DNA of 41,125 nucleotides from a bacterium. Its GTDB lineage: Bacteria; Muiribacteriota; UBA9980. Location of the stretch: the NCBI GenBank assembly GCA_029571125.1, contig JAKPTH010000705.1:1-41125 (forward strand), written 5' to 3'. Positions 4,354 through 21,972 of this stretch are shown here, piece after piece. The notes under the pieces are model-generated. The model did not search any database, was not told the origin of the DNA, and worked only from the letters and a program-made list of their open reading frames with translations. Position 1 is the first letter of the stretch. Every line of letters begins with the position of its first letter. The translations under genes and the position numbers were made by a program.

Positions 4354-6819
4354 TTAATTCTTAAAAATAAATTTTTCGGCGCTTTTATTTTTGATGACGT
4401 CTTTGATTTCGAACCTCATCGGCTTGAATCCCTTATAATCCTTGAACAGGTCAAGCTGGTCGCGGGTGTGTTTCGAAGCGGCCTTTTCGTTGGAGGCTTT
4501 ATAGCCCGACTGCCCCGGAGGATTTATGTTATAGGCGATGGTGTAGTCGGGACCGAGCTCCACGAAATGGTTTTCTGTTCCGCGGTTGACCATTGGAACT
4601 TCTATGATATCGGAAGCCTGGGCCTGCGGGACCTTGACGAAATTGCAGGTCTCGAACGCCATCATCTGGACGGGTTTGAGCCATTTTCGGGGATCGTTCG
4701 TCTTATATTCTGCGGCGAGTTTCTTGACGGCGCGTTCGCAGGCGGCCGTAAGCAAGGTTTTAAGCCCGGCGCCGTTGGTATAATCGTGGTTCAGCGAAGC
4801 CTGAGCGCCGTTGGCGCGGCTGAGAGTGTAGTAAAGCAATATCGACTGGGTCCAGAAGGTTTCCGATTCCACCGTCCAGAGCATGTCGCCGAGTTCGTCG
4901 GCGAAAAGCGAATCCATGGTTTCGCGCCATAGCGCGTCGAATAGGGCGACCGCGGGTGAATCGTAACGGCCGTCCGCGCCGCCGCTGCGCTCGAAATTCC
5001 ATGATTTAAGAAGTTTCAGGCAGGTGTTCACGGATTCGTCATAGGGGGTCGCGCAATCCGATTCTAAAAATTTAATCATCATAGGGGCGAAAATATAGGC
5101 GCGCAGGTCGGTATATCCGATTTTTTTATGGATTTCGTACAGGGCCGCGAGATCGAATTTTTCGCGCGAGCGCAGCTGATCCTGGATGAAAGCCGTGCGC
5201 TGGTCGGGGCCCCACTGCGTGGCCAGATCGCCGTTTCTGAAATCGCGTGTCGGTTTGGAATTCCAGTTCGCTATAAAACCTTCGGTTTCGTTTTTGGACG
5301 AGGGGTTTGTTTCGCCGGGGAAAAAACCCTGCCATTCGGCTTCACCGGTGCCCGGAAGAGGAAGGCGGTCGTCGAAACGCGGATTTCTGACGGGATATCT
5401 TCCGCTCAGAAAGTGGTATGCCTCGCCTTTTCTATTGATCGCGAGCATGTTAATGGAAATGGGGTTTTTAGAAAAATGATATTTGAGCTCTCCGAAATTT
5501 TTAGCGTTGACAGCCATCATCCATTCGAACATTGAATTGAGCTCGAGGCCTTCCCACGCGCGTTTTTTAGAATAAGCCACGCCGTTTTTACGGTCGATTT
5601 CAAACACCGGCCCGTGGACGCTTCTTAAAAATTCCACTTTTAAAGGGCGTTTGCGGCCTTTTACATTGATTTCAAACCGGCGTTTTTCGAATTTTTTATA
5701 TTCTTTATTGAATAAGTATTCATCGGGGTTTTCGGGATTCAATTTTTCGACGTAAACGTCGGTCAGATTCCCTACGCCAGCCGTAGCGGTGAAGGCCAGG
5801 TCACGGTTCATTCCGAACATTATATTCATGTAGCAGGGAGTGGTGGCGCCGACGATATCTATTTCAGGCGAGTGAAGGCCCACTTCGATAAGATATGCGG
5901 GAGTGAAAAAGCCCATCTGCGGGCCGGAAGCGAGTATAGCGTTTCCGGTGGCGGAGCGGCTGCCGGAAACGAGATATGTGTAAGAGCCGAGTTTGACCGG
6001 CATGCCGAGTCTGGCCAGCGCAGATTTGGCGCTTTTAAGCGCGGCGCGGTATGCTCCGCCGTTTGAATAAAGCTGACGCAGGCTATTTGAGCCGGCGTTT
6101 TCCGGCCCGCTCAGCGAAGCCTTGCCGTAAGATTGAGAGCAGCCGGTTTCGTTTATGGTGGTGGGCGAGTTGTCGTCGTTTATGGGCGTGACGTCTTCGA
6201 AAATTTCCATGGCTTTTTTATCGCCGAATTTCGCTTTAAGTTTGTTAAGAAGGTTCATATTGTCCATTTCGGAGGTGAAATCGGAATACCTGACGGCCAT
6301 GGTGCCTATGTAAACCGAAGCCACGGCCGCGGCGTCCCACTTTTGAGGGTTGAACCCGAATTTTTTGAATTCGTAAGGCATGGAGCCGGGAGTTTTTTCG
6401 AATTCGGCTATTTTTTTATTAACGCCCATGGCGAACATTTCAAGAAGTTTTGCGCAAACGGGTTCTATTTTTTTTATGCGCTCTTCGATTTCGGCTATCG
6501 AATAACCGTCGCGCAGAGCGGATTTGTCAAGTTCGATAAAATCTTTGCCGAGCGCTTCTGAAACGGTTCCGCAAACCGATCTGCGCAGCATTTCGATCTG
6601 GAAGAGGCGGTCTTCCGCGGTCACATAACCGTAGCCGAAGTAAAGGTCGAATATGTTTTTAGCGTAAACGTGAGGCACGCCGTATTCGTCGCGGATGATT
6701 CTAATGGAATTAAAAGAATCGTTCGGAACCGAAAAATCGGCGGCCGACGAAACCGCCTGAAAGCTGAAAACCGTCAATAGCAAGAAGAAAAAATACCATG
6801 TTTTTTTGAGTTTGTTCAT
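4354..6819 (-). CDS. Penicillin acylase (S45) family N-terminal-nucleophile hydrolase, secreted
   Basis: 821 aa with a Sec signal peptide (about residues 1-26, ending near SSAADF). The alpha-chain hallmark DEYGVPHVYAKN...AEDRLFQIEMLRR lies at residues 44-80. A linker of some 50 residues precedes LGSYTYLVSGSRSATGN, where Ser279 aligns with the autocatalytically exposed beta-chain nucleophile. GPQMG and GMNRDLAFTATAG follow. ANWNSKPTRD near residue 518 matches the conserved region of the oxyanion asparagine, and GPDQR and NPPGQSG are also present. The length is normal for the family. Such enzymes cleave amide bonds of acylated substrates (penicillins, N-acyl-homoserine lactones, acyl-peptides); the substrate cannot be told here. 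It is the last gene of the long minus-strand run, 37 bp after the PAP2 gene. The preprotein must be cut into alpha and beta chains in the periplasm. Confidence 0.9.
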   Translation of the reverse strand: MNKLKKTWYFFFLLLTVFSFQAVSSAADFSVPNDSFNSIRIIRDEYGVPHVYAKNIFDLYFGYGYVTAEDRLFQIEMLRRSVCGTVSEALGKDFIELDKSALRDGYSIAEIEERIKKIEPVCAKLLEMFAMGVNKKIAEFEKTPGSMPYEFKKFGFNPQKWDAAAVASVYIGTMAVRYSDFTSEMDNMNLLNKLKAKFGDKKAMEIFEDVTPINDDNSPTTINETGCSQSYGKASLSGPENAGSNSLRQLYSNGGAYRAALKSAKSALARLGMPVKLGSYTYLVSGSRSATGNAILASGPQMGFFTPAYLIEVGLHSPEIDIVGATTPCYMNIMFGMNRDLAFTATAGVGNLTDVYVEKLNPENPDEYLFNKEYKKFEKRRFEINVKGRKRPLKVEFLRSVHGPVFEIDRKNGVAYSKKRAWEGLELNSMFEWMMAVNAKNFGELKYHFSKNPISINMLAINRKGEAYHFLSGRYPVRNPRFDDRLPLPGTGEAEWQGFFPGETNPSSKNETEGFIANWNSKPTRDFRNGDLATQWGPDQRTAFIQDQLRSREKFDLAALYEIHKKIGYTDLRAYIFAPMMIKFLESDCATPYDESVNTCLKLLKSWNFERSGGADGRYDSPAVALFDALWRETMDSLFADELGDMLWTVESETFWTQSILLYYTLSRANGAQASLNHDYTNGAGLKTLLTAACERAVKKLAAEYKTNDPRKWLKPVQMMAFETCNFVKVPQAQASDIIEVPMVNRGTENHFVELGPDYTIAYNINPPGQSGYKASNEKAASKHTRDQLDLFKDYKGFKPMRFEIKDVIKNKSAEKFIFKN

Positions 6820-6856
6820 AAAAATACCCCTTTTATTTTTATTAGTTAATTTTTAA

Positions 6857-7375
6857 TTAAACGGCCGTTTTTAAATAAAAATAAGCCGTGGCCATTCCGA
6901 GCGCGCCGCCGGCGAGAATATCTGAAAAATAATGGAGCTTCAGGTACACTCGCGTGGAGGTAATAAAGGCAGCGAAAAAAAAGAGCGCGATGGAATGATA
7001 TATTCCGAAAAAATGATACGCAGTCACGCAGAATAAAAAATTTCTAAGGGCGTGTCCGGATGGAAACGAATAGTTTTCAATCATCGGAACTATAGCGAAT
7101 TCTTTGGGCATATCTCCGATAGGGCGGCGCCTTTTGAACGTGAGCCGCACCGCGTATAATATAAGCACGCCTATTATGGTGGAGAAAAAAGTGGCCGCGG
7201 CGAATTGCTTCAGCGTTTCGGAGCAGTAAAGATAGAAATAAAGGAAGAGCGGAGCGTGGACCACGGCGTCTCCGAGATGGGTGAGAGCGGCCGCTGCCTT
7301 TCTGGCGGAAGGATTTTGAAATCTGTCGACGAACGACGAAGTTATGTAATTATCCAGTTTTAATATTAAATTCAT
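6857..7375 (-). CDS. PAP2-family membrane phosphatase
   Basis: 172 aa with about five membrane helices. The three phosphatase motifs are visible: a KX6RP-like motif at residues 77-85 (RLTFKRRRP, with Arg replacing the first Lys), PSGH at 105-108, and S-T-R-X5-H-X3-D at 140-152 (R142, H148, D152). Family members dephosphorylate lipid phosphates such as undecaprenyl pyrophosphate, phosphatidate or phosphatidylglycerol phosphate at the outer face of the inner membrane. Which lipid applies cannot be decided. It lies 34 bp after the TPR gene and 37 bp before the acylase gene, so all three are probably co-transcribed, which suggests an envelope role. Confidence 0.9.
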   Translation of the reverse strand: MNLILKLDNYITSSFVDRFQNPSARKAAAALTHLGDAVVHAPLFLYFYLYCSETLKQFAAATFFSTIIGVLILYAVRLTFKRRRPIGDMPKEFAIVPMIENYSFPSGHALRNFLFCVTAYHFFGIYHSIALFFFAAFITSTRVYLKLHYFSDILAGGALGMATAYFYLKTAV

Positions 7376-7409: not shown

Positions 7410-9248
7410 TCATGTCCGGCGGCAGAGCGTCCTGGCTATCGCTTTCATTTTTTCGAAATCGCCGGCCAGCGCAGATTCGAGGATATTGCGCGCGTCTATA
7501 TGTGAAATCGAAAATTGCGAGGCAATCTGTTTTGCGTATTTTTCACGGGCGCTCAGCTCGGCTTCGCCGGGCATATTATTGCTCAAATCGAGCTTGAGCT
7601 CTATTTTAGATAATTCCCTTTTTAATTCGTCTATTTGAAGCTGCGTCAGAAAATAAAATATTTCGGCGCTCATAGCGCGGTAAGCCGGAGCCAGGCAAAT
7701 ATTTATTACGCTCGTCATGACGAAGTTCACGAAGCCGAGCATTCCGAAAACCAGCCATGAAAAGACTATAATGGCTTCAAGCGAGGAAAAAATTATTAAG
7801 GCGGCCTTTGATTTTACTGCGTTTTCAGTTTCCGCGTTCCTTTTTAAGCCTGCGGGCTTGTCTTCGGCAGAAGCCGCGTCGGAGTTTTCGGAGGCCTGGG
7901 CGCGGACGAAGTATTTGCCGGTTAAAGTTTCGAGCCGCGAGTTTATTTCTTCGCGTTTTTTTAAGGCTTCGTTATAGGGTTTCATGCGGTCGCCGAAATC
8001 TTTGCCGTATTCTACTGTAATCGCCGAGCAGAATTGCTTGAATTGCATGAACTTTTGCTGGGCCTGGTTGTTGAGCATTACGGAATCTATGCTTTCACGG
8101 ACTTTTTCGAGCCGTTTTAAGATCTCTTCTATATCGGAGAAGGTCTTGTTTTTTTTGAAATATTCCTGTATCGACTTGAACTCTTTCTGGAGCTGAAATA
8201 CTCTGGCCGTATCGGCGTTGGTTTCGAGCTTATGAGGAATTCCGGCTATTTTCTGAGCGGTTTGCTCAATTTTTTGAACGCAGGTTTCCAGGGAGCGGTC
8301 GTATCTGGAACCGGCCATGGAAGCAAGCAACTCAAGTGCCGGATCGAAGGCGTGATCCAGAAGGGCCTGCAGAAGAAAATTGTATTCCGCGTCGAAAAGG
8401 TCTTTTGCGTTTTTATTGAAATCTTCTCCGCGGTTTTCGAAGGCGCAAAGCCCGGCGATAGACTGCAGGCGAGCGTATCGCGCCATAAGCAGGTCCGGAT
8501 CTGTTTTGAGGGCGTTTTCACAAATTAGAAGGGCGTCTCTGGCCATATCCGCATCTTGCCTGTGAAGCGCCTTGAGCCTGGTGATAAGCGCGGCAAAACA
8601 GCGGGCCATGCTTTCGACGCGAGCCGATATTCCCCGGGCGTGGTCCGCGCATCTGGCGAAACAATCGGCGGCTTTTATGTGGTCGGCTTTTTCAAAGAAA
8701 TAATACATGCCGAGCTGGAAAAGTATTGTAAAATCTCCGGGCGTCAATTCGAGCGCCTGTTTGAAGCCTTCGATGGCGGCTTCGAAGTGGCCTTTTTTAT
8801 AGGTCTCTTCGGCTTTTTTTCTGAGCACCGAAGCCGTAAGCGACTCGACGCTGTCCTGCGAACGGTATTTTAGTATTTCCTGATCGGTTTCGCAGCGGTG
8901 CCAGAAAATATATTCGGTCAAGGAGTAGTTGGAGACCAGAAAAAAGTAATCGTAATTTTTTTCAATTTTAGAGTTTATTTCCGCCGCTATGCTTTTAAAG
9001 AGGTTGGAGCGCGTCAGAGACCAGAATATCGAAAGCCTCCGGCTTATCTTATCCAGGTTTCCGAGATAATCGTTTGCGCAATAAGATTTGTAAAAATGCT
9101 CGCCGGCGGTTTCGTTGAAAATGTCGGCAATTATGCCGGTATACGGCCTTTCGAAGTAGTTCAGTCTCGAAATGATAGCGTATATTACGTTTCTTTTATA
9201 TACTATCTGTCTGTATTCGAGCATATTTTTCAGGCTAAATTCGCTCAT
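7410..9248 (-). CDS. TPR-containing membrane protein, unknown function
   Basis: 612 aa with no signal peptide. The first 140 residues are polar and of unknown fold. Residues about 143-205 form TPR-like helical hairpins (AEETYKKGHFEAAIEGFKQALELTP and the following pair). A long helical, probably coiled-coil region follows (about 310-450), then two adjacent hydrophobic helices near residues 482-525 and a charged cytoplasmic tail. It starts three bases after the stop of the upstream permease gene, and its Shine-Dalgarno GGAGG lies inside the last codons of that gene, so translation is coupled to the ABC transporter. This suggests a scaffold or regulator for the transporter on the cytoplasmic side. 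I do not recognise the family. Confidence 0.75.
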   Translation of the reverse strand: MSEFSLKNMLEYRQIVYKRNVIYAIISRLNYFERPYTGIIADIFNETAGEHFYKSYCANDYLGNLDKISRRLSIFWSLTRSNLFKSIAAEINSKIEKNYDYFFLVSNYSLTEYIFWHRCETDQEILKYRSQDSVESLTASVLRKKAEETYKKGHFEAAIEGFKQALELTPGDFTILFQLGMYYFFEKADHIKAADCFARCADHARGISARVESMARCFAALITRLKALHRQDADMARDALLICENALKTDPDLLMARYARLQSIAGLCAFENRGEDFNKNAKDLFDAEYNFLLQALLDHAFDPALELLASMAGSRYDRSLETCVQKIEQTAQKIAGIPHKLETNADTARVFQLQKEFKSIQEYFKKNKTFSDIEEILKRLEKVRESIDSVMLNNQAQQKFMQFKQFCSAITVEYGKDFGDRMKPYNEALKKREEINSRLETLTGKYFVRAQASENSDAASAEDKPAGLKRNAETENAVKSKAALIIFSSLEAIIVFSWLVFGMLGFVNFVMTSVINICLAPAYRAMSAEIFYFLTQLQIDELKRELSKIELKLDLSNNMPGEAELSAREKYAKQIASQFSISHIDARNILESALAGDFEKMKAIARTLCRRT

Positions 9249-9251
9249 AAG

Positions 9252-10091
9252 CTAATCCTCCCGCCATCTTAAATATTTTTCGAATATGTTCGCCGCGAAA
9301 AGCGTTAATATAATTGAAAACAAAATATACAAAAGGGTTATGACCGCGTAATCCGGAACGGCATTGCCGAAAATGCTCGACAATCCGTCGTTCCCATAGT
9401 AGGCGGAACCGTAAATATGAGACGAAGAGTAATTGACCCAAACGTCTATAGGCGAAAGATTGGTGAAAAATTTATAGGAGTTATAATCGTACAAAGGCCT
9501 GTAGAACCACTCATCAAGTAAAAAAATCAAAAAATGAAGCGCGAACATGGAAAAATAAAAAAACGAATTGGCCGAGGCGTTTTTTTTGAATAAAATTGAA
9601 ATAAGCACGCCTGAAGCGAGGTAAAAGAAAGTAAATCCGGCCCACATAAAAAAACCTCCGGCGAGCCTGAAAAAATTAAAATCGCCGAAGACGGTTATCA
9701 TAAGAGTTAAAACGATGTAAGGCAAAGAAAGAACGAGCATATAGATGAATCCGGATATTATCTTTCCGGTGATTATCTGCAGTCCTGAAATTCCTGACAT
9801 TCTTAAAAGCGTAAGGGTCTTTTTTTCTTTTTCGGATGTGATGGATGCCGCGCTGTAAGTTCCGCCTATGAGAGCCGAACATGCGCAGATTATAATGAAG
9901 AATGCGTTTACGATGCCTGCCCGCGACAGATCGCTATAAGAGAGCTGCATAAAAAAAACCGTTATTATAAGTCCGATCGATATTACGAAATATATTAACA
10001 TGCGCGTAGCATTTTTTCTAGATTCGAACATTAAATCTAGAAAAATTAACGGCGATATGGAGTCCGCGAAGTTTTTAAGTTTTTCGTTCAT
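9252..10091 (-). CDS. ABC-2 type transporter permease (third of three)
   Basis: 279 aa with six predicted membrane helices. The first cytoplasmic loop carries SITSEKEKKTLTLLRMSG, the ExEKxTLxxL coupling helix typical of ABC-2 exporters of the NatB/YhaP/GldF type. The protein is clearly paralogous to the permease at 10989-11843, sharing the SEKEKKTLTLLRMSG loop, a LASGVLISILFKK-like helix and a C-terminal [RK]WRE[DN] tail. It works in the inner membrane with the ATPase at 11846-12778. It starts 41 bp after the stop of the second permease gene, and its final codons provide the ribosome binding site of the TPR gene. The substrate is unknown. Confidence 0.85.
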   Translation of the reverse strand: MNEKLKNFADSISPLIFLDLMFESRKNATRMLIYFVISIGLIITVFFMQLSYSDLSRAGIVNAFFIIICACSALIGGTYSAASITSEKEKKTLTLLRMSGISGLQIITGKIISGFIYMLVLSLPYIVLTLMITVFGDFNFFRLAGGFFMWAGFTFFYLASGVLISILFKKNASANSFFYFSMFALHFLIFLLDEWFYRPLYDYNSYKFFTNLSPIDVWVNYSSSHIYGSAYYGNDGLSSIFGNAVPDYAVITLLYILFSIILTLFAANIFEKYLRWRED

Positions 10092-10132: not shown

Positions 10133-10984
10133 TTACAGCCATTTATGTTGAAGCCTTCTGTAGGCCGATATTATAAGAAGCAGGAAAATGAGCGACAGCG
10201 CTCCGTAAAACGCTATGATTTTCAGCGTTTCAATATAAAAAAAACCGAATATCAGGTTCTGGCTCGAGTATTTTGAAAGGTTGAGATTGAAGCTCGAATA
10301 TCGGCCGCCGGCCGAGCCGAAAAAAATCGCTTCGATGGACATGAAAGGGTTTATATAAGCCGAACTGAAAATATAGCCGAGTCCGAGGTCGCGAAGAAAT
10401 GCCGAAAAAACGCCCATAAATATCAGCAGAAGAAAGAAAAAAAAGTATGAACGGCTTATCGCCTTGTAGGAAGTCGCTGAAATTACGGAAAAAAACATCG
10501 CCCACAGGCAGATCGCAAGGGACATAACGAGTATTATCATGTAACCCTGTATTATTTCGCTCATCGCGAAGCCGCCGAGCTTGTAAAGCGCCCCGAAAAG
10601 AGGCACGGTTATCATTATCAGATAAAGCGTATAAAAAACGCCGACCTGTATCTTTCCGGATATTATATCGAACATGGTCAGCTGCGTTACCGCGAGTGAC
10701 GCCAGCGTGTTTTCTTCTTTTTCACGAGTGAAAGTGGTGGCCATAAAAGACGGAAGAATGACGAAGATCAGCAGCATCATCACGCATAAAATTCCCACCG
10801 CGGCGTAACGGCTGGTGCGGATGAGATCGATCACTCCCTGGCCGTAGGAGGATGAATAGTGCCCCGGCCAGGACGTGAAAACGACAAGCGTGAGTATCGA
10901 CATATATACGGTTATCCAGAAGTAGGTCCTTGGCCTTCTGAAAAGGGTTATAACTTCCCGACCGAGTATGGGATTTATCATCAT
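10133..10984 (-). CDS. ABC-2 type transporter permease (second of three)
   Basis: 283 aa with six predicted helices. The coupling loop reads TFTREKEENTLASLAVTQL, matching those of the two neighbouring permeases (EKExxTLxxL) but more diverged, and the C-terminus (YRRLQHKWL) lacks their WRE tail. It is therefore probably the heterologous partner half, while the other two resemble each other. The ATG follows the upstream stop by four bases. GGAGGG within the last codons of the upstream gene lies 12 bases before the start, so MM at the N-terminus leaves one codon of uncertainty. It is part of the four-gene ATPase-permease block. Confidence 0.85.
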   Translation of the reverse strand: MMINPILGREVITLFRRPRTYFWITVYMSILTLVVFTSWPGHYSSSYGQGVIDLIRTSRYAAVGILCVMMLLIFVILPSFMATTFTREKEENTLASLAVTQLTMFDIISGKIQVGVFYTLYLIMITVPLFGALYKLGGFAMSEIIQGYMIILVMSLAICLWAMFFSVISATSYKAISRSYFFFFLLLIFMGVFSAFLRDLGLGYIFSSAYINPFMSIEAIFFGSAGGRYSSFNLNLSKYSSQNLIFGFFYIETLKIIAFYGALSLIFLLLIISAYRRLQHKWL

Positions 10985-10988: not shown

Positions 10989-11843
10989 CTAATTTTCCCT
11001 CCATTTCAGGTAATTTTCGAATATTTTCACGCCGGAATAAAATAATATGACGGCCGCGCCGAAATATATCGCCGCCGATTCTCCGCTGGTGAGGCTGAAG
11101 TAAGATTCAGGCGAAAAAGGCTTGTAGTTTGGCGTAACCGCCGCCTGGATAGAATCGAAAAAGCTTCTCCACATTTCCAGCGGAGAAAAAACCGATAAAT
11201 AACGGTAGTTATGCCGGCTGTAATATGATGCGCCTGAGGCGTAACTTATGGCGTCGTCGATTATGAAAAAACCGAAGTGTAATATCAGAAGAAAAGCCGT
11301 AGCGAATGCTATGCATGTATAACTTTTTTTGAACAGGATTGATATGAATATTCCTGCGCTTATGTAAAACAGCAGGGAAACGAATAAAATCAGAAGGCTT
11401 TTAAGTATCGCCTGGCCGGAGATTCCGCCAAGAAAAGGGCATATAGTAATCAACGGAGCCGCAGGCAGAAGAATGAATACCGTAAAGCATAAACTTACGG
11501 CGGCTTTTGAAAACACGATCTCGCCGGGGCCCAGGCCGCTCATGCGTAAAAGCGTGAGCGTTTTTTTCTCTTTTTCGCTCGATATTGAAAGCGCGGCGTG
11601 CCCGGTGGCTAAGACGGTAGCGACCGCAATAGTATAAACCATTATTACGGTAAAAAACCTGTCTCCGAAGGAGTTGTGGAGCGCTTCCTGCTCGTAGGGC
11701 CACTGGCCGAATAAAAAGCAGCCGCAAATGGCGAGCGCTGAAATGGCGTACGAAACCAGCGGCGCATGGTTTTGCCTGTAAATGAATTCAAAAATCATCG
11801 CCGGCTTTAACGTTTCGTATATTTTTATCAGCCGTTGTGGCAT
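10989..11843 (-). CDS. ABC-2 type transporter permease (first of three)
   Basis: 284 aa with six predicted helices. The loop SISSEKEKKTLTLLRMSG is nearly identical to that of the permease at 9252-10091. The region around FYISAGIFISILFKKSYTC and the C-terminal FENYLKWREN also match that paralog, so these two arose by duplication. It starts two bases after the stop of the ATPase gene, which indicates translational coupling. A transporter needs two permease halves; three genes mean either alternative pairings or two complexes served by one ATPase. Confidence 0.85.
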   Translation of the reverse strand: MPQRLIKIYETLKPAMIFEFIYRQNHAPLVSYAISALAICGCFLFGQWPYEQEALHNSFGDRFFTVIMVYTIAVATVLATGHAALSISSEKEKKTLTLLRMSGLGPGEIVFSKAAVSLCFTVFILLPAAPLITICPFLGGISGQAILKSLLILFVSLLFYISAGIFISILFKKSYTCIAFATAFLLILHFGFFIIDDAISYASGASYYSRHNYRYLSVFSPLEMWRSFFDSIQAAVTPNYKPFSPESYFSLTSGESAAIYFGAAVILFYSGVKIFENYLKWREN

Positions 11844-11845: not shown

Positions 11846-12778
11846 TCAGGATACCTGGCCTTTCGTCACTTTCATGAAAATATCCTCCAGATTGCCGCCT
11901 TTATCGTAAAACGAAACCACCTGTACGCCGTTATGTATAAGGTGCCTTAAAAGATCGGCGAGCGCCTGGTCGTCAGCGCGCATTTCGAAAGTGAAAACTT
12001 TTTCGAGGACGGCGGCTTCTATATTGCTTATTTCAGGCGTAGACTTGAGAATAGTTTCACATAGTTCGACGTTATCGATTATTTTTAACTTTATGTGGCG
12101 GTTTACGCCCTGGCTTTTTACGACGTCTTCAATGCGGCCGGAAACCACGAGGCGGCCGGCTTCTATTATACCAACCGACGTGCAGAAATCGGCGAGCTCG
12201 GTAAGTATATGCGAAGATACGAATATAGTTTTTCCCATCTTGCGCAGCTCGTTCAGAAGCATTCTCATTTCGACCCTTCCGCGGGGGTCGAGGCCGGAGG
12301 CAGGTTCGTCGAGCACCAGCACGAGCGGATCGTGTATGAGGGTTTTAGCGAGGCACAGCCTCTGTTTCATGCCGCGGGAGAGCCCGCCGACAGGCGAGTC
12401 TTTTTTGACGGTAAGATCGGTCAGCTCGAGTATATCGTTTATTATGGCGTTGCGGTCTTTGTAGGGTATTTTATGGCACGCGGCGAAGAAATCGAGATAT
12501 TCGAAGACTTTAAGTTCTTCGTAAAGGCCGAATAAATCAGGCATATAGCCGAGTATGCGCCTGACTTTGTAAGGCTCGTCGACGACGTTGATTCCGTTAA
12601 TTTTGCAAAGGCCGGCGCTCGGGTTTAAAAGCGTGGAAAGTATTTTTATGGTGGTGGACTTGCCGGCGCCGTTGGGGCCTATAAAACCGAATATTTCGCC
12701 CTTTTCGACGAACAGGTTGAGGTTGTTCACCGCCATTAAATTGCCGTAATATTTGTAGAGATTTTTAATTTCTATCAT
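11846..12778 (-). CDS. ABC transporter ATP-binding protein
   Basis: 310 aa. Walker A GPNGAGKST is at residues 34-42, the ABC signature is GGLSRGMKQRL, Walker B is LVLVLDEPASGLDP and the H-loop is SSHILTE. About 90 residues after the H-loop form the extra C-terminal domain common in the NatA/CcmA/GldA exporter class. All catalytic motifs look intact. The start has a GGAG Shine-Dalgarno. It is the first gene of the compact ATPase-permease-permease-permease block and is separated from the upstream 735-aa gene by an 87-bp gap with a GC-rich hairpin, so the block may be set at its own expression level. It powers export or envelope remodelling; the substrate is unknown. Confidence 0.95.
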   Translation of the reverse strand: MIEIKNLYKYYGNLMAVNNLNLFVEKGEIFGFIGPNGAGKSTTIKILSTLLNPSAGLCKINGINVVDEPYKVRRILGYMPDLFGLYEELKVFEYLDFFAACHKIPYKDRNAIINDILELTDLTVKKDSPVGGLSRGMKQRLCLAKTLIHDPLVLVLDEPASGLDPRGRVEMRMLLNELRKMGKTIFVSSHILTELADFCTSVGIIEAGRLVVSGRIEDVVKSQGVNRHIKLKIIDNVELCETILKSTPEISNIEAAVLEKVFTFEMRADDQALADLLRHLIHNGVQVVSFYDKGGNLEDIFMKVTKGQVS

Positions 12779-12865: not shown

Positions 12866-15073
12866 TTATAATTTGATTATGGCTATCGAACCCAGCTCGT
12901 TTAGCGAGCATCCCGATGTTTTAACCGCCTCGCCCATGGTTCCGCCCGCCCTGACATAGCCAACCAGCACAGGCGATTTTGCTGAATTTTTGGCGATATA
13001 TACGGCGGCCGTTTTTAAAAATCCTTCGTCCGAGTAGGAGTATCCGGCGCCGGCTTTACGCAGGTTCTGGGGCATAGCGGCGATTATGCTGTCGGATATC
13101 GCGTAAAAATGATCGTTTATCGAATGCGCGTCGCACGAAACGTCTTTGACTGGTGAATTTTTCGCGCCGGGCGCAAGCCTGTCGAAAGAAAAAACGCGGC
13201 CGGCGTAATAAACCCGGCATTCGGAAATGTCGAGATCCGTATTGTTAACTATCGACTCCAGCATTCTGGCTTTTTTATTAAGCGCGGCGGCGTTTATATA
13301 AGACTGCAGCTCGCCGTCGATGCTTTTAAAAGCGTTCGCCGCCTTGTTTTTTTTCATGGCTCCGTCGTCGGAACGGATCGTTGAGGAGCCGTAATCGACT
13401 CTGAACCTGCCGTTAAGGCCGGTCTGCTTTACCACGGCATACTTTGAAAAACGATAGTCCATCTGAGGATGTATGAGCTTTATGCGATCCTCGTTTATTA
13501 TTATTTCGCTTTCACGGTTTCCGTAATAGTCTTTGGCCGTTCCCATCAGCGTGGCTTCGCTCATGTCTATGCTGTAATCGCCTCCGGACATTGGCGGCAT
13601 GAGAATGGCCACGCTGGAAATAAGGTGCGACTTCATGGTTTCGTTGTCGACGATCCGTAGAGCCAGTTCGGCCACGCTGGGGCTGTTTAGCATGAATTCT
13701 ATGTTGAAGCAGTTGAAAATTATGAAAAATACTACAGAAACGCCCGTCGGGACTATTATAAGCCTTGCCATAGTGACGCGGTTTCTGATATAAAAATAAA
13801 AGACGGGGCCGATCAGCAGAGTAAACGCTATAAGCAGCAACAGCACGATAAATGCCGAAGGCGGCTCGGTGACGAAGTGGCTGAATTTTTCTGAAAATTT
13901 AACGAAGCCGGAAGATATGACGGACAGCTTAAAGTCTTTATTGTCTTCGCCCTGCTTGAGAATGCCGCTTATATTGTCTTTGAGATAGTCGATGCGGCTT
14001 ATGTCTATTTGCGAAATATCGAATGCCGTGTAGTAAACTATTCCCGAGCCGAAACGGGAGTGCGCGATAAGCGGAACTACCCTGCCGTCGGGCGCCGTTA
14101 AATTAAGCGTTGCCGAGGCGCCTTCCTTTACCTCGGAGATGCTCAGAGGGATGTTTACGCCGTCGAATTTTTCGCTGAGAACGCCGTTTATATTCTGCGA
14201 AGCGGCGTATCTGTAAAAATCGGGGCCGTTGAATACCTCGCTTCCTTTTATGGTCACAGGTAGAATTGAAGCCAGCTCGCCCGCGGCCAATCTTGAAACG
14301 AATCCGCCGTAGCTTATGATTAGCGCGCCGCCCGCTCCGGCGTATTCTATGACGGCCTTCGTCTGCTCTTTGCTCATCACCGAAACGTCTATGCCGTTAA
14401 TTATGACGAGCGAGTATGGCTCGTAGCAGGCGAAGCTGGAAAACATTTCTGAGGCCGAGATATTATGCACGATAACTTTCGAATTTTCAGAAGAGCTATA
14501 TCCGGAAGAGCCGCCGTAGCCGTAAGTGTCATAATTATAGGTTTCCTTACGCTTTTCGGGGGGCGAAATGCTTCTTAGCGAACTTACGTAAGAAGGCGTT
14601 TCCGAAACGCTTAAAATGTAGTAATCTTTAAGCTGGTTGGACGTTACGCTGATTTTTTCGTCGTAGATTACGATGTTTTCCGAATTTATTATGCTTACTT
14701 TTATCGAATATGTGTAAGACGCGAATTTGGCGAACACGCTGTATTTTTTAGATGAGCGAGGGCCGACGAAAACGCCGGTGATCCTGTAAAAATTTCCGGC
14801 GGCCTCGACGAGTATTTCGCCTTCGAAATTCCCTGCGGTGCCGTTGTTGACGGTAACGTCGACCGGATTTAGATGATTGGGGAAGAAAGAGTTATCGATG
14901 CCGACTCCTGCCGACAGAGTGATTTCGTTCTGAAGGCTTTTCTGCAAATTTTTAGTTTTGCGTGTCTGCGCTGAAGCCGGAAGGGCGCAGGCGGCCGATA
15001 TTAAAAATATTAAAATTATAATGCAGGCGGCCGATAAAAAGACGCCGTTTTTTTTGCCGGATAATAATTTCAT
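12866..15073 (-). CDS. Secreted/membrane protein with glutamine-amidotransferase-like domain, ABC-transporter accessory type
   Basis: 735 aa. It has a signal peptide or signal anchor at residues about 10-36, then a beta-rich extracytoplasmic region. A Rossmann-like domain (about 200-370) contains YSLVIINGIDV, EYAGAGGALIISYGG and FGSGIVYYTAFD, the pattern of class-I glutamine-amidotransferase-like domains found in GldG-type and related envelope proteins. No catalytic Cys-His pair is evident, so the domain is probably for binding. Two membrane helices at about 404-428 and 440-460 follow, then another periplasmic region of some 270 residues. The layout (amidotransferase-like domain, two helices, extracytoplasmic tail) resembles the C-terminal half of the 1595-aa protein encoded upstream. 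It is probably an extracytoplasmic partner of the ABC complex; the function is unknown. Confidence 0.7.
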   Translation of the reverse strand: MKLLSGKKNGVFLSAACIIILIFLISAACALPASAQTRKTKNLQKSLQNEITLSAGVGIDNSFFPNHLNPVDVTVNNGTAGNFEGEILVEAAGNFYRITGVFVGPRSSKKYSVFAKFASYTYSIKVSIINSENIVIYDEKISVTSNQLKDYYILSVSETPSYVSSLRSISPPEKRKETYNYDTYGYGGSSGYSSSENSKVIVHNISASEMFSSFACYEPYSLVIINGIDVSVMSKEQTKAVIEYAGAGGALIISYGGFVSRLAAGELASILPVTIKGSEVFNGPDFYRYAASQNINGVLSEKFDGVNIPLSISEVKEGASATLNLTAPDGRVVPLIAHSRFGSGIVYYTAFDISQIDISRIDYLKDNISGILKQGEDNKDFKLSVISSGFVKFSEKFSHFVTEPPSAFIVLLLLIAFTLLIGPVFYFYIRNRVTMARLIIVPTGVSVVFFIIFNCFNIEFMLNSPSVAELALRIVDNETMKSHLISSVAILMPPMSGGDYSIDMSEATLMGTAKDYYGNRESEIIINEDRIKLIHPQMDYRFSKYAVVKQTGLNGRFRVDYGSSTIRSDDGAMKKNKAANAFKSIDGELQSYINAAALNKKARMLESIVNNTDLDISECRVYYAGRVFSFDRLAPGAKNSPVKDVSCDAHSINDHFYAISDSIIAAMPQNLRKAGAGYSYSDEGFLKTAAVYIAKNSAKSPVLVGYVRAGGTMGEAVKTSGCSLNELGSIAIIKL

Positions 15074-15129: not shown

Positions 15130-18100
15130 TTACTCGTATTTTAACGTAACGTTTATGCCGGAAAGCGTTTCGCCCGGCGCCAGAGCCTGACGTCTGATGT
15201 AAAAACGCATAAGGTCGTTATTATCGTAGAGGTTATAGTTCAAATAATGCTCGAAATTTTTAATCCTGAAAACGACATTTCCATTTTCTATATTATACTC
15301 GAAATTTTTCTTATTGTCATGCATTAAATTTATAAAAGTTGTCGCATAAACACCCTTGAAAGGAAATTTAATGCTCGAAGCGTTGTAAAATGAATCGTAA
15401 ATCTTTAAATTGTCAGAAAATAAGTCGCTGAAAGAGTCGCAGAATTTTTCGATACTCTTAGTAGGTCCTCCGTGAACGGGAGCGTTGAGCTTTATATATG
15501 CGGTCAGACCGATTTCGGCGGTGGATTCCGACTTTAATACGAGGTCTTTATATCCGCAAAGATTGAACGTGAAAGTTTTATATTCTTCGTTATTTAAAAA
15601 TACCGTTTCTTTTTTAAAAGAATAATCCGCGACTATGGAATTTTTTTCGTTTTCTATATCCAGCGCCACCGCCGCGACGTCTATTCTTTCACATGTCGTG
15701 CAGCCTGCCGCGCCGTCGGATTTGACGGCCGTTTCACCGGCGCTTAAAATAAACATTACGGCGGCGGAATGATCCAGGCTTTTTTCTTCATAAACGCTTA
15801 AAAGTTTTTTTAGCGAATTTAAACCTGCGTCGGTTGCGCGGAGATTTTTTTGGACGTCTTTCAGCGCCGCCGTAATGTTTTGAACGGAAGAGTTGTCGAA
15901 AGCGTAATCGCGGGTTGAATGAGAAAGTTCGCGGGTAAAGTATCCGCCGGGAGTTTTTACGAGGACGGCCGAGCGGTCCCGGACATCCAAAAATTCAAGC
16001 GCTCCATGGCCGAAGCTGACGGCAAGGCATGGCTTTCCGGCCGGCCTCGAGGCTCGAACCGAAAAGCGTTTACCGTCAACTCCGCCAGCTCTTATATTTC
16101 TTGAAGAAAAAATCACGGGGTAAAAAATCAGCGGGCTGTAAACTTCTATTTTATTTCCGCATGGCGTGTCGGTAAAGTTTATTTTATTGTAGTAGCTTCC
16201 GGCCGTTTCTCGCGAAAGATGAAGGCCATCGAATTCAAGCGAAAGCTTTTTCGCCCCGCCGCCCCATATTTTATAAAAATCGGTCCTGATGACCGGGCCG
16301 GCATAGCTCTGAGGAATTTCACAGTAGCTCACTATCTGCGGAGGGTATTTGAAATCGGTTATCAAAAACCCCGCGGCCGCCAGCAGAAAACAGTAAAATA
16401 AAGTAACGGCTACGCTGTATGCGATATATTTGCCGCCAGTTTTTGTTTTGAGCGCGTGAAGATATACAAGTGAAAACGAAAGAATATAAACGAACATGAA
16501 GATTATGAAATATTCGATCTTTAAAGGCCAGCTTTTTTCGGCCGGATCGTACATTACGAGTTCGGGGGCTTCGCCGTTTAGAAGTTGTTTTACCGATCTA
16601 TTCGAATCTCCGAATACGGTTTTAGATATATAAAAATTTTCGATGGAGTTTTTAATAACTTCGTCTGAAAAATCGTAAGGCAGGTAATAAAAAGCCCCGT
16701 TTCCCATTTTTTTACGTATCAGCTTGGAATCGAACATTGCCAGCGGCGGCCCCGCTGCGTCAATGCGCGTTTCTGCGCCGGCCGGGCCTTCGGCGAAGAA
16801 AAAACGAGGATTGTCGCCGCCGATTGAAGGCGCGAAAGAATCTCCGGCGGCTGACGAGAAATAATTGGCGGCGGATGGGTTGAGCACCATTTTCCAGTCG
16901 GGTGAGGTGAAAATATATGTTCCGTTCTTCGAGTAACGGCTTCTTACGCCAGGCTTTTGTATTTCAAACTCGTGAATTTTAGAGCTGTTTATATCAGCCC
17001 CGAAAATTTCTTTCATGAAGCTTGCCGTGCGAGCGGAGTAGATATCGCTAATGCACCCTCCGGATATTATTACGCGGCCTCCCGATCTGACATAGCTTTT
17101 AAGAGTTTCGTCGAAAGATTCCGGGGCGGAAGCCATGTCGAAACCGTCCAGCACTATGCCTTTAAATCCGGAGTAGGCAAGAGGGTTCGCAGGCGCGAAC
17201 GCAAGGTTGACTTTGACGGTCTGAGCGTATGAAGCGCTTTTTAAGTAATGAGAATAAATGAAATTTATCGCTGAAACTATAGAGTCGGCCCTGCCGTCTT
17301 TCGGAGCGCATACGGCATAGGAATCGGTCCGGGGCGCTAAGACGGTTCCGCTCAGAACGTTTTTTTCTAAAATAATCCCTCCTGCGCCGCGCAACTCGAA
17401 GTCGACGGAATTCCGGCTCAGGATCATCGGCCGAGATTCGTGGCGGCTGATTCGTTCCGGGGCGAGAAAGATACGCTCTTCGCGTATGCCGCTTCTTTCG
17501 TCACCGGTCGCGAGGACGGCTTCCACCGTCGAGCGGGACGCGTTGTAAATGTCGAATAAAAGAGTCGCCGGCGCTCCGGATATATAATTTTTGTCCAGGC
17601 CCGCGGAGGAATATAAAACTTTTACGGTTTGCGGAGCGGGCGAAAGGCTCCCGGATAAGCCGTAATTGAAGCTGTCGGCCTTTAATTTTTTTGAAAAAAT
17701 ATCGTAAAGGCAATAATCGTTAAACGATCTGTTAAGATGCGTGTAACCTCTTGAACCCGGCTGGTTTGAAAATAAAAGCAGATTGACGGAGCCGTTTTTT
17801 ACGAAAGGGTTTTTCATGTTGAATTCGGCGGAAACGCCGTTATCCAGGTTAAGAAATCTCTCGTTGAAGCAATTTTTCGTAACCGCATTACGGCTGTCGA
17901 AATCGACGTTAAAATTTTGGGTAATAAATTGTTTTAAAGGGCTTTCGCTGAAATCGCCTATTAAAATTATATTTGCGTATTTCAAAAAATCGCGGGGGTT
18001 GAATACGTTGTCGGATAGCGTTTTACAGGATATTCGGCCGGCCAGCTCGCGGCAGAAATCGCGGAATTTTTGCGGCAGGCCGGAGCTTTCGCTGAAGACG

Positions 18101-19917
18101 GCGACCGAATCCGTGGCGGCGGGAGGAGGCCCGAAACCGGCTATATCATAAGAAATTAGATGATCGTTATTTTCGTCGATTATGTACTTTATATTTTCTA
18201 GATTTGTCGGAAGATCGAACTCGAGATTATTAACGCCGCGGCGGGCGGTAAACGTTTTGCGGCCGATTAATTTATAATCGGCCCGGCCGGAAATCAATTC
18301 AATATTTCCGGAAAAATTTGACGGCCTTTTTGAAAAAGCGCTTTTAGAAGCTGCCGCGGAGTTTTTTAGCCCGGCGCTTTTTTCCGAGCCGTAAAACGCG
18401 ATATCCATTTCGAAATCGCCGTTCAGGCCGTCGGTTCGTTCAAGCTCCACAATAGCTTTGAAAGAGCCTTCGGAATTTTTTTGTAAAAAAGCTCCGTTTA
18501 CGTTCAATTCTATCGCCGCGGTGGAGCCGTAAAACGAGTCGAAAACGAAGCGGGCTTTTTCAAATGCTTTTTCGTTGACTATGCGCTTTTCGGAAAAAAA
18601 CTTGGAGTTCCTGTCGAATAAGTGGTTTTTAAAATCTTCCACAGTCAGGGTTTTTTCAGCGAAATCAGAAAGATAATCACGCACCAGCGAGGACTGGCTT
18701 TTGTCCAAAGCGAGGCCCATATAATAAAGAGCCGATTTTAAAACCATCATCCCTCTGTAATACATTAAAGCCTGATAAGAAAAGCCGGCCGTGGGATTTT
18801 TGGACGCATCCGCGATGGACGTTTCGCCTTTGCCCGCCCTGAAACGATACGATAGATAGCGGCGCCTGAGTTCGTCGTATTTTTTTTGATATATGGCGCC
18901 ATGCTTTTCCCTGACGTATTCGAGCGAAGCGTAGGTGGCGAAAGCTTCGTTTAAAAAATTAGATTCGGGAAATTCTCCCAGCACGAAATTTCCGAACCAT
19001 TGATGCGCGATTTCATGCGCCAGAAGCTCGATGTCGGCGCCTTCGTCGCCGAACGCGGCCGCGGTTATATAGACTACTTCCTCTGGACCGTAGCCGCCCG
19101 GAAATACTTTTTCCACTTCGACTATGTTAAGCGTTTTGATGCCGTTATCGCCGTATCCGGAACGGTAGAAATCGATTACGGACAAGGCCTCTTTTAAATA
19201 TGCCTCCGCCGCTTCGGAATCTTTTTCGTAGAAAAAGACATTGATTTTAAAGGGAGTTTCGCCTGAAGAAGACATTTTGGAGTAAGGTCCGGCCGCAAGA
19301 GTATGGCATCTGGACTTTTTGCCGTTGACGAAACGCGAAACCGTCCTGCCGTCAGCGGCGTCGTGCGACGAAACCAATTCGCCCTGCGATATAGGAGTCC
19401 AGCTTTTATCGTGAACGACGCTCAGCTCGAAAAAGGATTTCTGGTCGAAACCGGCTCTGGGAAAATAACTGCAAAGATCGTCGAAGTAGCATCCTTCTTT
19501 GCCTATATAAGTGAATGAATTTTTGGGGGTTATGTATCTTGACGGATCGCCGTAAAAAGACACGAAAATTTTTGAAACGCCATGCTCGACGTTTGTTTTT
19601 ATGAACTCGCCTTCGCGTTTGAAGGTTTTCTCGCCGCCGCCCGGAAAAACGGATAGCGAACGGACGTCCATGTCTTCGTGAAGGTTTAACGTCACTTCGC
19701 CGCTGAAATTAGCGCCGGGCGGCGCGATGATTTCGACTTCGCCGGAAACCATATGCTTTTGCGGAAGAAGATCGAGCGTAACGATATATTTTTCAACGGC
19801 GGCGTAATCGGGACGCGCTTGAAGAGAGACGCTTTTCGCTGCTGCGGCAGCGGCCGGTATGACATGAAGAAGGAAAAGAAACGATAACAGGAAAATACGG
19901 AAGGTGCTTTTAGTCAT
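15130..19917 (-). CDS. M1-family metallopeptidase fused to glutamine-amidotransferase-like and membrane domains
   Basis: 1595 aa. A signal peptide (about 1-26, ending in an Ala-rich stretch) leads into an aminopeptidase-N-type domain (about 35-470). The zinc site is H301-EIA-H305 with Glu324 eighteen residues later (NEAFATYASLEY), and SYQALMYYRGMM holds the likely catalytic Tyr. The GAMEN exopeptidase motif is replaced by GGYGPEE. Residues about 590-1050 hold Rossmann-like segments (IILIGDFS; GIVLDGFDM; VRSGGRVIISGG). Two membrane helices near 1130-1185 precede a beta-rich extracytoplasmic tail of some 400 residues. M1 peptidases are usually 600-900 aa; fusions of M1 domains to ABC-2 permeases are known in other phyla, and here the peptidase is fused instead to an accessory-type domain. 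The gene overlaps the BMP gene by eight bases (ATGACTAA). Confidence 0.85.
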   Translation of the reverse strand: MTKSTFRIFLLSFLFLLHVIPAAAAAAKSVSLQARPDYAAVEKYIVTLDLLPQKHMVSGEVEIIAPPGANFSGEVTLNLHEDMDVRSLSVFPGGGEKTFKREGEFIKTNVEHGVSKIFVSFYGDPSRYITPKNSFTYIGKEGCYFDDLCSYFPRAGFDQKSFFELSVVHDKSWTPISQGELVSSHDAADGRTVSRFVNGKKSRCHTLAAGPYSKMSSSGETPFKINVFFYEKDSEAAEAYLKEALSVIDFYRSGYGDNGIKTLNIVEVEKVFPGGYGPEEVVYITAAAFGDEGADIELLAHEIAHQWFGNFVLGEFPESNFLNEAFATYASLEYVREKHGAIYQKKYDELRRRYLSYRFRAGKGETSIADASKNPTAGFSYQALMYYRGMMVLKSALYYMGLALDKSQSSLVRDYLSDFAEKTLTVEDFKNHLFDRNSKFFSEKRIVNEKAFEKARFVFDSFYGSTAAIELNVNGAFLQKNSEGSFKAIVELERTDGLNGDFEMDIAFYGSEKSAGLKNSAAASKSAFSKRPSNFSGNIELISGRADYKLIGRKTFTARRGVNNLEFDLPTNLENIKYIIDENNDHLISYDIAGFGPPPAATDSVAVFSESSGLPQKFRDFCRELAGRISCKTLSDNVFNPRDFLKYANIILIGDFSESPLKQFITQNFNVDFDSRNAVTKNCFNERFLNLDNGVSAEFNMKNPFVKNGSVNLLLFSNQPGSRGYTHLNRSFNDYCLYDIFSKKLKADSFNYGLSGSLSPAPQTVKVLYSSAGLDKNYISGAPATLLFDIYNASRSTVEAVLATGDERSGIREERIFLAPERISRHESRPMILSRNSVDFELRGAGGIILEKNVLSGTVLAPRTDSYAVCAPKDGRADSIVSAINFIYSHYLKSASYAQTVKVNLAFAPANPLAYSGFKGIVLDGFDMASAPESFDETLKSYVRSGGRVIISGGCISDIYSARTASFMKEIFGADINSSKIHEFEIQKPGVRSRYSKNGTYIFTSPDWKMVLNPSAANYFSSAAGDSFAPSIGGDNPRFFFAEGPAGAETRIDAAGPPLAMFDSKLIRKKMGNGAFYYLPYDFSDEVIKNSIENFYISKTVFGDSNRSVKQLLNGEAPELVMYDPAEKSWPLKIEYFIIFMFVYILSFSLVYLHALKTKTGGKYIAYSVAVTLFYCFLLAAAGFLITDFKYPPQIVSYCEIPQSYAGPVIRTDFYKIWGGGAKKLSLEFDGLHLSRETAGSYYNKINFTDTPCGNKIEVYSPLIFYPVIFSSRNIRAGGVDGKRFSVRASRPAGKPCLAVSFGHGALEFLDVRDRSAVLVKTPGGYFTRELSHSTRDYAFDNSSVQNITAALKDVQKNLRATDAGLNSLKKLLSVYEEKSLDHSAAVMFILSAGETAVKSDGAAGCTTCERIDVAAVALDIENEKNSIVADYSFKKETVFLNNEEYKTFTFNLCGYKDLVLKSESTAEIGLTAYIKLNAPVHGGPTKSIEKFCDSFSDLFSDNLKIYDSFYNASSIKFPFKGVYATTFINLMHDNKKNFEYNIENGNVVFRIKNFEHYLNYNLYDNNDLMRFYIRRQALAPGETLSGINVTLKYE

Positions 19918-20959
19918 AAAGTTTTTTAATGCTTTTTAATACGCCGATTTTTTCTTCGATGATGTCTTTCTGTATTTTATCCAGCTTTGATTCGACTTCG
20001 GGCGTTATGACTTTGAATTTTGAATAATCCAGGCCGGAAAGGCGGATCGCGCCTTCTTTGACGCCGTAATTGCGCTTTCCGGATTTAAAGCCATCTTTGA
20101 TGGCGCTTTTTAAAAAATCATAAATTACTACGTCGAGCCTCTTTTCTACCGAAGTTATTACATTGCCCGGCGCGAGAGCGGATTGATCGGAATCGACTCC
20201 TATTACATAGCGCTTCGCTTCTACCGCCGCTTCTATGACTCCAAGGCCCGCTCCGCCGGCCGCGTGAAAAATAACGAAAACACCGTTTTTATAAAGCTGC
20301 AGAGCGAGTTTTTTGGCTTCGGCCTTGTTGGCGAAGGCCGAAGGGTCTTTGCCGACGTAGCGGATTTCGACTTTTATTTTGGGATTGATATGCTTTGCGC
20401 CTTCTACGAAGCCGTCGCTGAAACGTTCCACCGGCGGTATCATCATGCCGCCTATAAAGCCGACGGGTTTGCCTTTTGAAACAAGCGCCGCGAAAGCGCC
20501 CGCCAGAAAGCCGCCCTCGTGTTCGCGGAATATCAGAGAAGCCGTATTTTTTCCTGTTACGGCGGAATCTATAATAACGAAATGGGTGTTTTTAAACTGC
20601 CTTGAAAGTTTGGAGAAGAGCTCTTCATATTCGAAGCCGACGCCGATAAGCAGGTCGTATTTTTGCTTGGCGAAAAACGAAGCGTCCTGGATGTTTTTGT
20701 CGTCGCCCTGATAGGCGTTGAAGTTGAGCTCGACTTTCATATCTTTTTCGATTTTATGAAGCCCGTTGGTGACAAGATCGTTAAAACCCTTGTCGCCGCC
20801 GCCGCCGCGGGCGAGAAAAACGGCGCATTTGGAATAAGCGTTGCCCGCAAGGCCTAGATAGGCCCTGTAGGCGAACGTGAATATTATTATGGCTATAATG
20901 GCTATTACTATCGTTAAGATAATATTGCCATTTTTAAGGCTTTTTTTATAAAATATCAT
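19910..20959 (-). CDS. BMP (basic membrane protein)-family substrate-binding protein, membrane-anchored
   Basis: 349 aa. The fold follows the BMP/PnrA/Med family of periplasmic binding proteins: FLARGGGGDKGFNDLVTNGL at about 48-67, a YDLLIGVGFEYEE strand, FLAGAFAALVSKGKPVGFIGG, then VIFHAAGGAGLGVIEAA and YVIGVDSDQS. Family members bind nucleosides or act as ligand sensors. The N-terminus carries one hydrophobic helix (about 12-30) without a lipobox cysteine, so the domain is tethered by an uncleaved anchor rather than by lipid. No BMP-partner permeases of the usual branched-chain type are nearby; instead it sits in the ABC-2/M1 locus. There is no clear Shine-Dalgarno before the ATG. It starts 20 bp after the MBL stop and ends within the start of the M1 gene. 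Confidence 0.85.
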   Translation of the reverse strand: MIFYKKSLKNGNIILTIVIAIIAIIIFTFAYRAYLGLAGNAYSKCAVFLARGGGGDKGFNDLVTNGLHKIEKDMKVELNFNAYQGDDKNIQDASFFAKQKYDLLIGVGFEYEELFSKLSRQFKNTHFVIIDSAVTGKNTASLIFREHEGGFLAGAFAALVSKGKPVGFIGGMMIPPVERFSDGFVEGAKHINPKIKVEIRYVGKDPSAFANKAEAKKLALQLYKNGVFVIFHAAGGAGLGVIEAAVEAKRYVIGVDSDQSALAPGNVITSVEKRLDVVIYDFLKSAIKDGFKSGKRNYGVKEGAIRLSGLDYSKFKVITPEVESKLDKIQKDIIEEKIGVLKSIKKLYD

Positions 20960-20979
20960 GTTTTGTCAATGGCCTGTTT

Positions 20980-21972
20980 TTAAAATTCGAAAGTTCGGCC
21001 CTCTTCGGCTGCTTCGATTTTTATTGTTTTATTGTTAAAACGCGAAGCGGCGAGCTCGCGGGCGTAACTTATCATATCTTCTATTTCGCCGTCGGAGCGG
21101 GTGGGATCGTGATGAAAAAGGTAAAGAGTGCCGACGTTTGCGCGGCATGCTACCGAAACGGCGTCGTCGATTCTCGAATGACCCCAGTTGATCTTGGTTG
21201 GATATTCGCTTTTTTTATATTGAGAATCATAGATCAGCGCGCGCGCGTCTTTGCAGAAGTTTACCAGATTGAGGTTTTCCTGCATGGCAAGAGAAAGTTT
21301 TTCTATGCCGATAGGGTCTTTGAGTTTGGATTTCAGCGTTTCATAAAATATCGGATCGAATAAATCGTCAGGCATTTCGCCCGAATTGTTCAAAAAATAA
21401 TTTACGTAAGGTTCTGAATCGGTACAGTAAACCAGATCGTCCGCTCCGTTGAACGAAAAACGGTAACCGATGCATAAAACCGGATGATTCAATGTTTTCG
21501 TGCGTATTTTCAATCCGTCTATTTCGTAGCTGCCTTCCTTGATTTCGGTGAACTTCGATTCGGCTTTCATCTCGTCCAGTTTGACCGGAAAATATTGATA
21601 GCGCATCTGTTCTATGAAGAGGTCTTTAAGGCTGAGATAAGGCTTTTTGTTTCCGTCGTTGATAGAAGAGGTGACCGGTCCGTAAACGTTGAAAGAATTG
21701 CCGCCTATGAAAGCGGGAGCGAAAAAAGGAAAGCCCTGGACATGGTCCCAGTGGGTATGCGTTAAGAAAATATTGCAGGATAGCGTTCCGGGTTTATAGC
21801 GGGTGAGCAGGCTGTTGCCTAATTCGCGGATCCCGGTTCCGGCGTCGAGAATAACCACCTGGTTACGGCTTTTTATATAAATTTCAATACAGGAAGTGTT
21901 GCCGCCATATTTTACGGTAGATTTCCCGGGGGCTGGAATTGAGCCGCGGACTCCCCAAAAAGTGAACCTCAT
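20980..21972 (-). CDS. MBL-fold metal-dependent hydrolase
   Basis: 330 aa. The N-terminal MRFTFWGVRGSIPAPGKSTVKYGGNTSC start and the metal motif H72-T-H74-W-D76-H77 place it in the beta-lactamase-fold class near RNase Z and phosphoribosyl cyclic phosphodiesterase-like proteins. WGHSRIDDAV and LYLFHHDPTRSD near the C-terminus supply the remaining metal-ligand positions. It is probably cytoplasmic, with no signal peptide. Proteins with this start occur next to signalling genes in many genomes, but the substrate is unknown. It is the first gene after the promoter at 22069-22097. GGTGG before the ATG is a weak ribosome site. The BMP gene follows after 20 bp. Confidence 0.88.
   Translation of the reverse strand: MRFTFWGVRGSIPAPGKSTVKYGGNTSCIEIYIKSRNQVVILDAGTGIRELGNSLLTRYKPGTLSCNIFLTHTHWDHVQGFPFFAPAFIGGNSFNVYGPVTSSINDGNKKPYLSLKDLFIEQMRYQYFPVKLDEMKAESKFTEIKEGSYEIDGLKIRTKTLNHPVLCIGYRFSFNGADDLVYCTDSEPYVNYFLNNSGEMPDDLFDPIFYETLKSKLKDPIGIEKLSLAMQENLNLVNFCKDARALIYDSQYKKSEYPTKINWGHSRIDDAVSVACRANVGTLYLFHHDPTRSDGEIEDMISYARELAASRFNNKTIKIEAAEEGRTFEF

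Follow-up and report, generated by a model that had tools for sequence, protein, structure and literature searches.

The 41,125-nucleotide window analysed here, which is contig 116 of the fragmented draft genome G000 (4.87 Mb, 725 contigs), carries a long minus-strand run of envelope genes built around an ABC-2-type ATPase, three ABC-2 permeases and two large membrane proteins. We read this locus, with a probability of roughly 0.45, as encoding one inner-membrane ABC-2 machine together with co-regulated envelope enzymes, in which an M1 peptidase head would trim a peptide-bearing compound that is exported or lifted from the membrane. On our best reading, the locus is a genus-specific elaboration of a known, uncharacterised ABC-2/GldG-like envelope machine, one accessory subunit of which bears a peptidase. 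The element that carries this reading is a 1595-amino acid (aa) protein (15130..19917, minus strand, as are all genes of the run), which, judged by Pfam (Peptidase_M1, 2.6e-14) and profile comparison, is an M1 domain grafted onto a second, diverged GldG-like membrane subunit.

The other GldG-like membrane subunit is the 735-aa protein encoded immediately downstream (12866..15073). It comprises a signal segment, an Ig-like domain, a GATase-like domain, two transmembrane (TM) segments at about 407-456 and a C-terminal domain. The initial annotation had described this protein as amidotransferase-like. No Pfam match was obtained for it, including to the GldG and ABC_transp_aux (PF09822) models; what stands of that description is full-length homology to the GldG-like family of MoxR-linked gene clusters (hhalign 99.2%, E 1.2e-19, 529 columns).

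A similar layout was observed in the 1595-aa protein, namely a signal segment, the M1 domain (residues ~31-460), an Ig/GATase-like region (~740-1090), two TM segments (1138-1187) and a C-terminal domain. Residues ~740-1090 aligned (E 1.7e-5) to the Ig-like and GATase-like domains of the 735-aa protein, and residues 740-1200 matched a GldG-like profile built without members of this genus (90.9%, E 1.2e-6). Three further segments of the protein (catalytic, middle and C-terminal) served as controls against the same profile, together with a TPR alignment of unrelated origin, and all gave 0.3% or less. Internally, the 1595-aa protein has just two hydrophobic segments, positioned like the pair in its 735-aa relative. 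Because the non-M1 part is homologous to the GldG-like family and the TM pairs correspond, the protein appears to have arisen by grafting an M1 domain onto a GldG-like copy.

The M1 domain (PF01433, 53.8 bits against a cut-off of 27.7) retains an intact zinc site of the form HEXXH-x18-E (HEIAHQ...NE), with H301, E302, H305 and E324 invariant in three species, as are Y386-Y387. The GAMEN exopeptidase motif was not found, its position being occupied by GGYGPEE, which is likewise invariant in three species. Within the 1595-aa protein, the M1 region was 59-60% identical, compared to 35-43% elsewhere. Among the genomes searched, the M1/GldG-like fusion was restricted to this one genus, which is represented by four genomes (G000, analysed here, and G001, G002 and G003). 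M1 open reading frames (ORFs) at the best 80 named loci were 239-991 aa long and, by a rough tally, had no more than one hydrophobic segment each; an ABC ATPase was nearby at only a few of these loci. The strongest M1 matches in other genomes (E to 3e-49) were 470-810 aa long with no ABC core alongside, and a 1256-aa M1 ORF in genome G063 had no ABC neighbour in the stretch retrieved. A 1255-aa ORF with an HEXXH motif, located beside ABC genes on contig 688 of genome G020, was discarded as a spurious antisense frame and had no Pfam match. No description of an M1/GldG-like fusion, an M1-ABC-2 fusion or this gene set was found in the open-access papers searched.

The remainder of the core consists of a DrrA/GldA-like ABC-2-type ATPase (11846..12778; Pfam ABC_tran) and permeases A (10989..11843), B (10133..10984) and C (9252..10091). 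Permeases A and C carry the Pfam ABC-2 membrane domain and are paralogues (profile E 1e-38 to 1e-49; hhalign 100%, E 2e-39). Permease B fell below the Pfam cut-off and matched the profiles of both A and C, although in profile comparison it is more distant from these two than they are from each other. By sequence, therefore, permease and GldG-like subunit alike are present as duplicates. The ATPase scored 234 bits against the GldA equivalog model TIGR03522 (cut-off 402.6), and permeases A and C scored 22.6 and 17.5 bits against the GldF model TIGR03518 (cut-off 288.5). Since these cut-offs were not reached, a canonical GldAFG system was rejected.

Outside the genus, only the GldG-like protein, the DrrA/GldA-like ATPase and the ABC-2 permease travel together. 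In 18 genomes of another family (loci L213-L229 and L013), the ATPase gene followed the GldG-like gene at 17 of the 18 loci, the contig ending at this point in the eighteenth, and the usual order was MoxR - GldG-like - ATPase - permease - DUF58 - BatA - vWA. At E <= 1e-70, 14 of these genomes had a match to the ATPase, and in all 14 the matched copy adjoined the GldG-like gene. The GldG-like member of this family scored above the cut-off of no Pfam or NCBIfam model. A third family, represented by G020, carries a GldG-like gene, an ATPase (57% identity across the initial 159 residues) and a 535-aa permease, the N-terminal half of which resembles B and the second half another ABC-2 domain. In another phylum (G043), the order was GldG-like - permease - ATPase (48%) - 550-aa permease, flanked by two MoxR genes; this core carries three permease domains, and its GldG-like homologue weakly matches PF09822 (E 0.0056). 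No relative was found on viral contigs. MoxR, DUF58 and vWA genes are absent from the window. In G000, DUF58 genes occur on contigs 225, 571 and 599, where nothing matching the ABC core adjoins them, and in the genus as a whole the MoxR/DUF58 genes are separate from the ABC set, on other contigs. The earlier proposal that this locus splits and expands a known system was borne out: three single-domain permeases are found here against one 535-aa two-domain permease in G020, and two GldG-like proteins against one.

Eleven minus-strand genes behind a single good promoter had been assigned to the run, and all of these ORFs were recovered with the positions, order and spacing originally given. In transcription order, they encode an MBL-fold (metallo-beta-lactamase-fold) hydrolase resembling RNase Z and cyclic-nucleotide phosphodiesterases (20980..21972; Pfam Lactamase_B_2), a BMP/PnrA-like binding protein with an N-terminal membrane segment (19910..20959; hydrophobic residues 13-31; Pfam Bmp, 3.2e-72), the 1595-aa and 735-aa proteins, the ATPase, permeases A, B and C, a 612-aa protein in which sequence analysis identified TPR and coiled-coil regions and a membrane hairpin (7410..9248), a PAP2 phosphatase of undecaprenyl-diphosphatase-like type (6857..7375; Pfam PAP2) and a penicillin-acylase-type N-terminal nucleophile (Ntn) hydrolase with a signal segment (4354..6819; Pfam Penicil_amidase, 2.3e-118). 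The successive intergenic distances are 20, -8, 56, 87, 2, 4, 41, 3, 34 and 37 bp. Pfam agreed with the domains first named for the MBL, BMP, M1, ATPase, permease A and C, PAP2 and acylase genes, while permease B and the 735-aa protein remained below threshold. The run also extends beyond its earlier limit at 4354, with two further minus-strand genes. The first, a 50-aa ORF (4085..4237) lying 116 bp from the acylase gene, has a loop resembling an EF-hand; the second, after another 9 bp, is an ORF call for a 387-aa multi-TM protein of no assigned family (2912..4075). Beyond it lies a convergent gene. The transcription unit probably comprises 13 genes (2912-21972).

Upstream of the run lies a sigma-70-type promoter, TTGACA-17-TAAAAT (22069..22097, minus strand; 11/12 consensus matches). 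In agreement with the single promoter first claimed, this element was identical or near-identical in 4/4 genus genomes, despite differences in the upstream DNA and in the upstream gene. The 87-bp gap ahead of the ATPase gene, the longest among the eleven genes, was not conserved, measuring 27 bp in G003, which speaks against an internal promoter being maintained there. Scanner counts for promoters (34 vs 24.5 in shuffles) and terminators (45 vs 31.2) were only somewhat greater than in shuffled sequence, so internal matches of either kind carry little weight.

Conservation of the run was also observed within the genus. In both G002 and G003 the full gene order was present on one contig; in G001 the order was consistent but spread over three contigs (C29, C213 and C135). 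The proposal that the ABC-2 system and its GldG-like partner form one unit was upheld by their conservation across these genomes. However, the genes flanking the run were syntenic too, so gene order within the genus alone is no proof of joint function. Identity to G002/G003 differed from gene to gene, from 90-93% for the ATPase (90-99% across the genus), 90% for the MBL hydrolase (90-97% across the genus) and 84-86% for the BMP protein, through 79-80% for permease B, the most conserved of the permeases, to 56-58% for permeases A and C, 57-58% for the 735-aa protein and 43-45% for the 1595-aa protein. The 50-aa ORF and the 387-aa gene were found in the same order in 4/4 genomes. This small ORF was 80-96% identical in the other three species (80-100% over all four genomes), its first ~20 codons being near-unchanged even at third positions, and no relative was found in the phylum's other 36 genomes. 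Its central loop reads ESDGVVSKGEF in G000 and DSDGTLNKGDF in G002, an EF-hand-like pattern without Pfam support.

The peripheral genes did not share the wider distribution of the core. BMP and M1 homologues in other families of the phylum were located at unrelated loci without the ABC core, as were homologues of the acylase, which showed 31-35% identity in one family and were more divergent in the others. MBL/PAP2 homologues were not seen beside BMP/acylase homologues, MBL and PAP2 having had no searches of their own. The co-occurrence expected across related genomes was thus seen for the core but not for the M1, BMP and acylase genes, and the idea of an eleven-gene system conserved beyond the genus was rejected. 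The MBL, BMP, PAP2 and acylase proteins are probably not conserved subunits but co-regulated partners, their co-transcription being deduced from spacing and promoter conservation. The initial annotation had also cast the BMP protein as a sensor for the exporter, a role for which no support emerged beyond co-transcription. Three further BMP proteins are encoded in G000 (contigs 450, 480 and 146; L303-L305), with no recognisable ABC importer ATPase within the 9-10.5 kb retrieved around each. In a PADLOC scan, which did not cover the acylase, only the ATPase matched, and only generically; a defence system was rejected on this basis.

In the mechanism we propose, an ATPase dimer would drive permease pairs sharing B (A-B and/or B-C), because the paralogy of A and C together with the fused two-domain permease of G020 suggests heteromers of this kind. 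The GldG-like subunits would form the extracytoplasmic part, with the M1 domain sitting outside the membrane on one of them, where it may trim a peptide or an envelope compound at its peptide end. The TPR, PAP2, acylase, BMP and MBL proteins could provide a scaffold, recycle a lipid carrier or process products, acting as accessories and not as subunits. We infer that these proteins assemble into a single complex, that the complex acts in transport, and that a peptide-bearing substrate is trimmed at the outer face of the membrane. A more tentative variant, which we consider less likely, has two alternative complexes with the ATPase and permease B in common, one processing and one not. The GldG-like subunit would have been duplicated, one copy fused to the M1 metallopeptidase and the permease duplicated to match, and the ABC machine so formed, coupled to a peptidase, would be of a new type.

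Several observations weigh against a peptide-trimming ABC-2 machine. The M1 gene was missing from every core found outside the genus, and peptide trimming would therefore not be the ancestral function. The permease pairing is a step that we infer, and any functional tie of the BMP and acylase proteins to the core would rest on co-transcription in one genus. Finally, a single-sequence AlphaFold prediction of the 735-aa protein was unusable (pLDDT 34).

The alternative that survives best is a GldAFG/FtsEX-like non-transporter, in which ATP cycling would move the extracytoplasmic GldG-like arms and thereby control some envelope process, for instance assembly of the adjacent pseudopilin system, with M1 as a regulated enzyme and not a trimmer of cargo. 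GldF and GldG are required to localise GldA at the membrane, and GldA and GldF are required for the stability of other gliding proteins (PMC9127263), while GldA/F/G is considered a likely ABC transporter (PMC5682007). Taken together, these reports make a regulatory role a serious rival, although we regard it as less likely than the preferred reading. The permease domains are ABC-2 and not FtsX-type, which counts against it. Two minor-pseudopilin genes, a large TM protein and lipoproteins do occur near the core both here and in six genomes from two genera of another family. However, this link is weak, at 6/18 loci by reading and 4 by automatic pairing versus 1/19 controls, and the six loci come from two genera only and are not independent. 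As a lead only, the pseudopilin set is a possible cargo or client of the machine.

In the window, this set is divergent from the run (26420-31835, plus strand) and encodes two proteins with N-methylation motifs, an 899-aa TM protein and two TPR-type lipoproteins. Similar sets near the ABC/MoxR core were seen at L013, L213, L217, L218, L219 and L225. Between the operon and the pseudopilin cluster lie a hybrid histidine kinase, a response regulator and a second kinase (22137-26213, minus strand); this block is partly broken in G001 and missing in G002/G003, and looks like a lineage-specific insertion or loss. Further along (35643-40719, plus strand) lie two adjoining hybrid PAS histidine kinases, each with a receiver domain at the C-terminus; the two are apparently paralogous.

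An improbable alternative is a general envelope operon, in which the ABC core and genes of separate function share one promoter and the M1/GldG-like fusion is an accidental chimera. The unlinked peripheral genes outside the genus and the synteny of the flanking genes are what such an operon would show. Yet the M1 active site is preserved while the remainder of the 1595-aa protein diverges, the graft sits specifically on a homologue of the adjoining ABC partner subunit, and spacing is tight throughout the run. A split form of the known ABC-2-permease/M1-aminopeptidase fusion, to which the 1595-aa protein had first been likened and which would account for M1 and ABC-2 proteins in one operon, is highly improbable and was rejected, because the M1 chain has a signal and two hydrophobic segments but no permease domain, its non-M1 half is GldG-like and homologous to the 735-aa protein, and the nearest M1 domains (named genomes, other phyla) stand alone with no ABC core alongside.

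GldG-like proteins and ABC-2 sets in MoxR clusters are widespread, and the open-access papers found treat MoxR/vWA clusters and GldAFG separately, naming no substrate for either. For the peptidase-coupled machine preferred here, a GldG-like subunit that bears a peptidase suggests that the extracytoplasmic domain lies where a peptide-bearing substrate passes. This natural variant gives a testable handle on what GldG-like ABC machines act on.

Other ABC systems with an attached peptidase offer partial parallels. In peptidase-containing ABC exporters, a C39 peptidase is fused to the transporter, and a peptidase that is physically part of an ABC machine may be a shared feature; here, however, the peptidase is unrelated, would act outside the membrane and belongs to another subunit, making the comparison one of analogy only. 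ABC-2 permease/M1 aminopeptidase fusions also exist and likewise tie an M1 peptidase to an ABC-2 system, whereas here the fusion partner of the M1 domain is a GldG-like accessory protein instead of a permease. With the gliding-motility ABC system GldA/GldF/GldG of Flavobacterium, the locus shares an ATPase, an ABC-2 permease and a membrane protein with a GATase-like extracytoplasmic domain, but none of the three comes close to the equivalog models, and three permeases and the M1 graft are additional. Homologues of the GldG-like protein, the ATPase and the ABC-2 permease are encoded in the MoxR-DUF58-BatA-vWA clusters, where, as here, the ATPase gene comes straight after the gene for the GldG-like protein. 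In contrast to these clusters, the present run has no MoxR, DUF58 or vWA gene, its permease is split and duplicated, and its second GldG-like protein bears the M1 peptidase.

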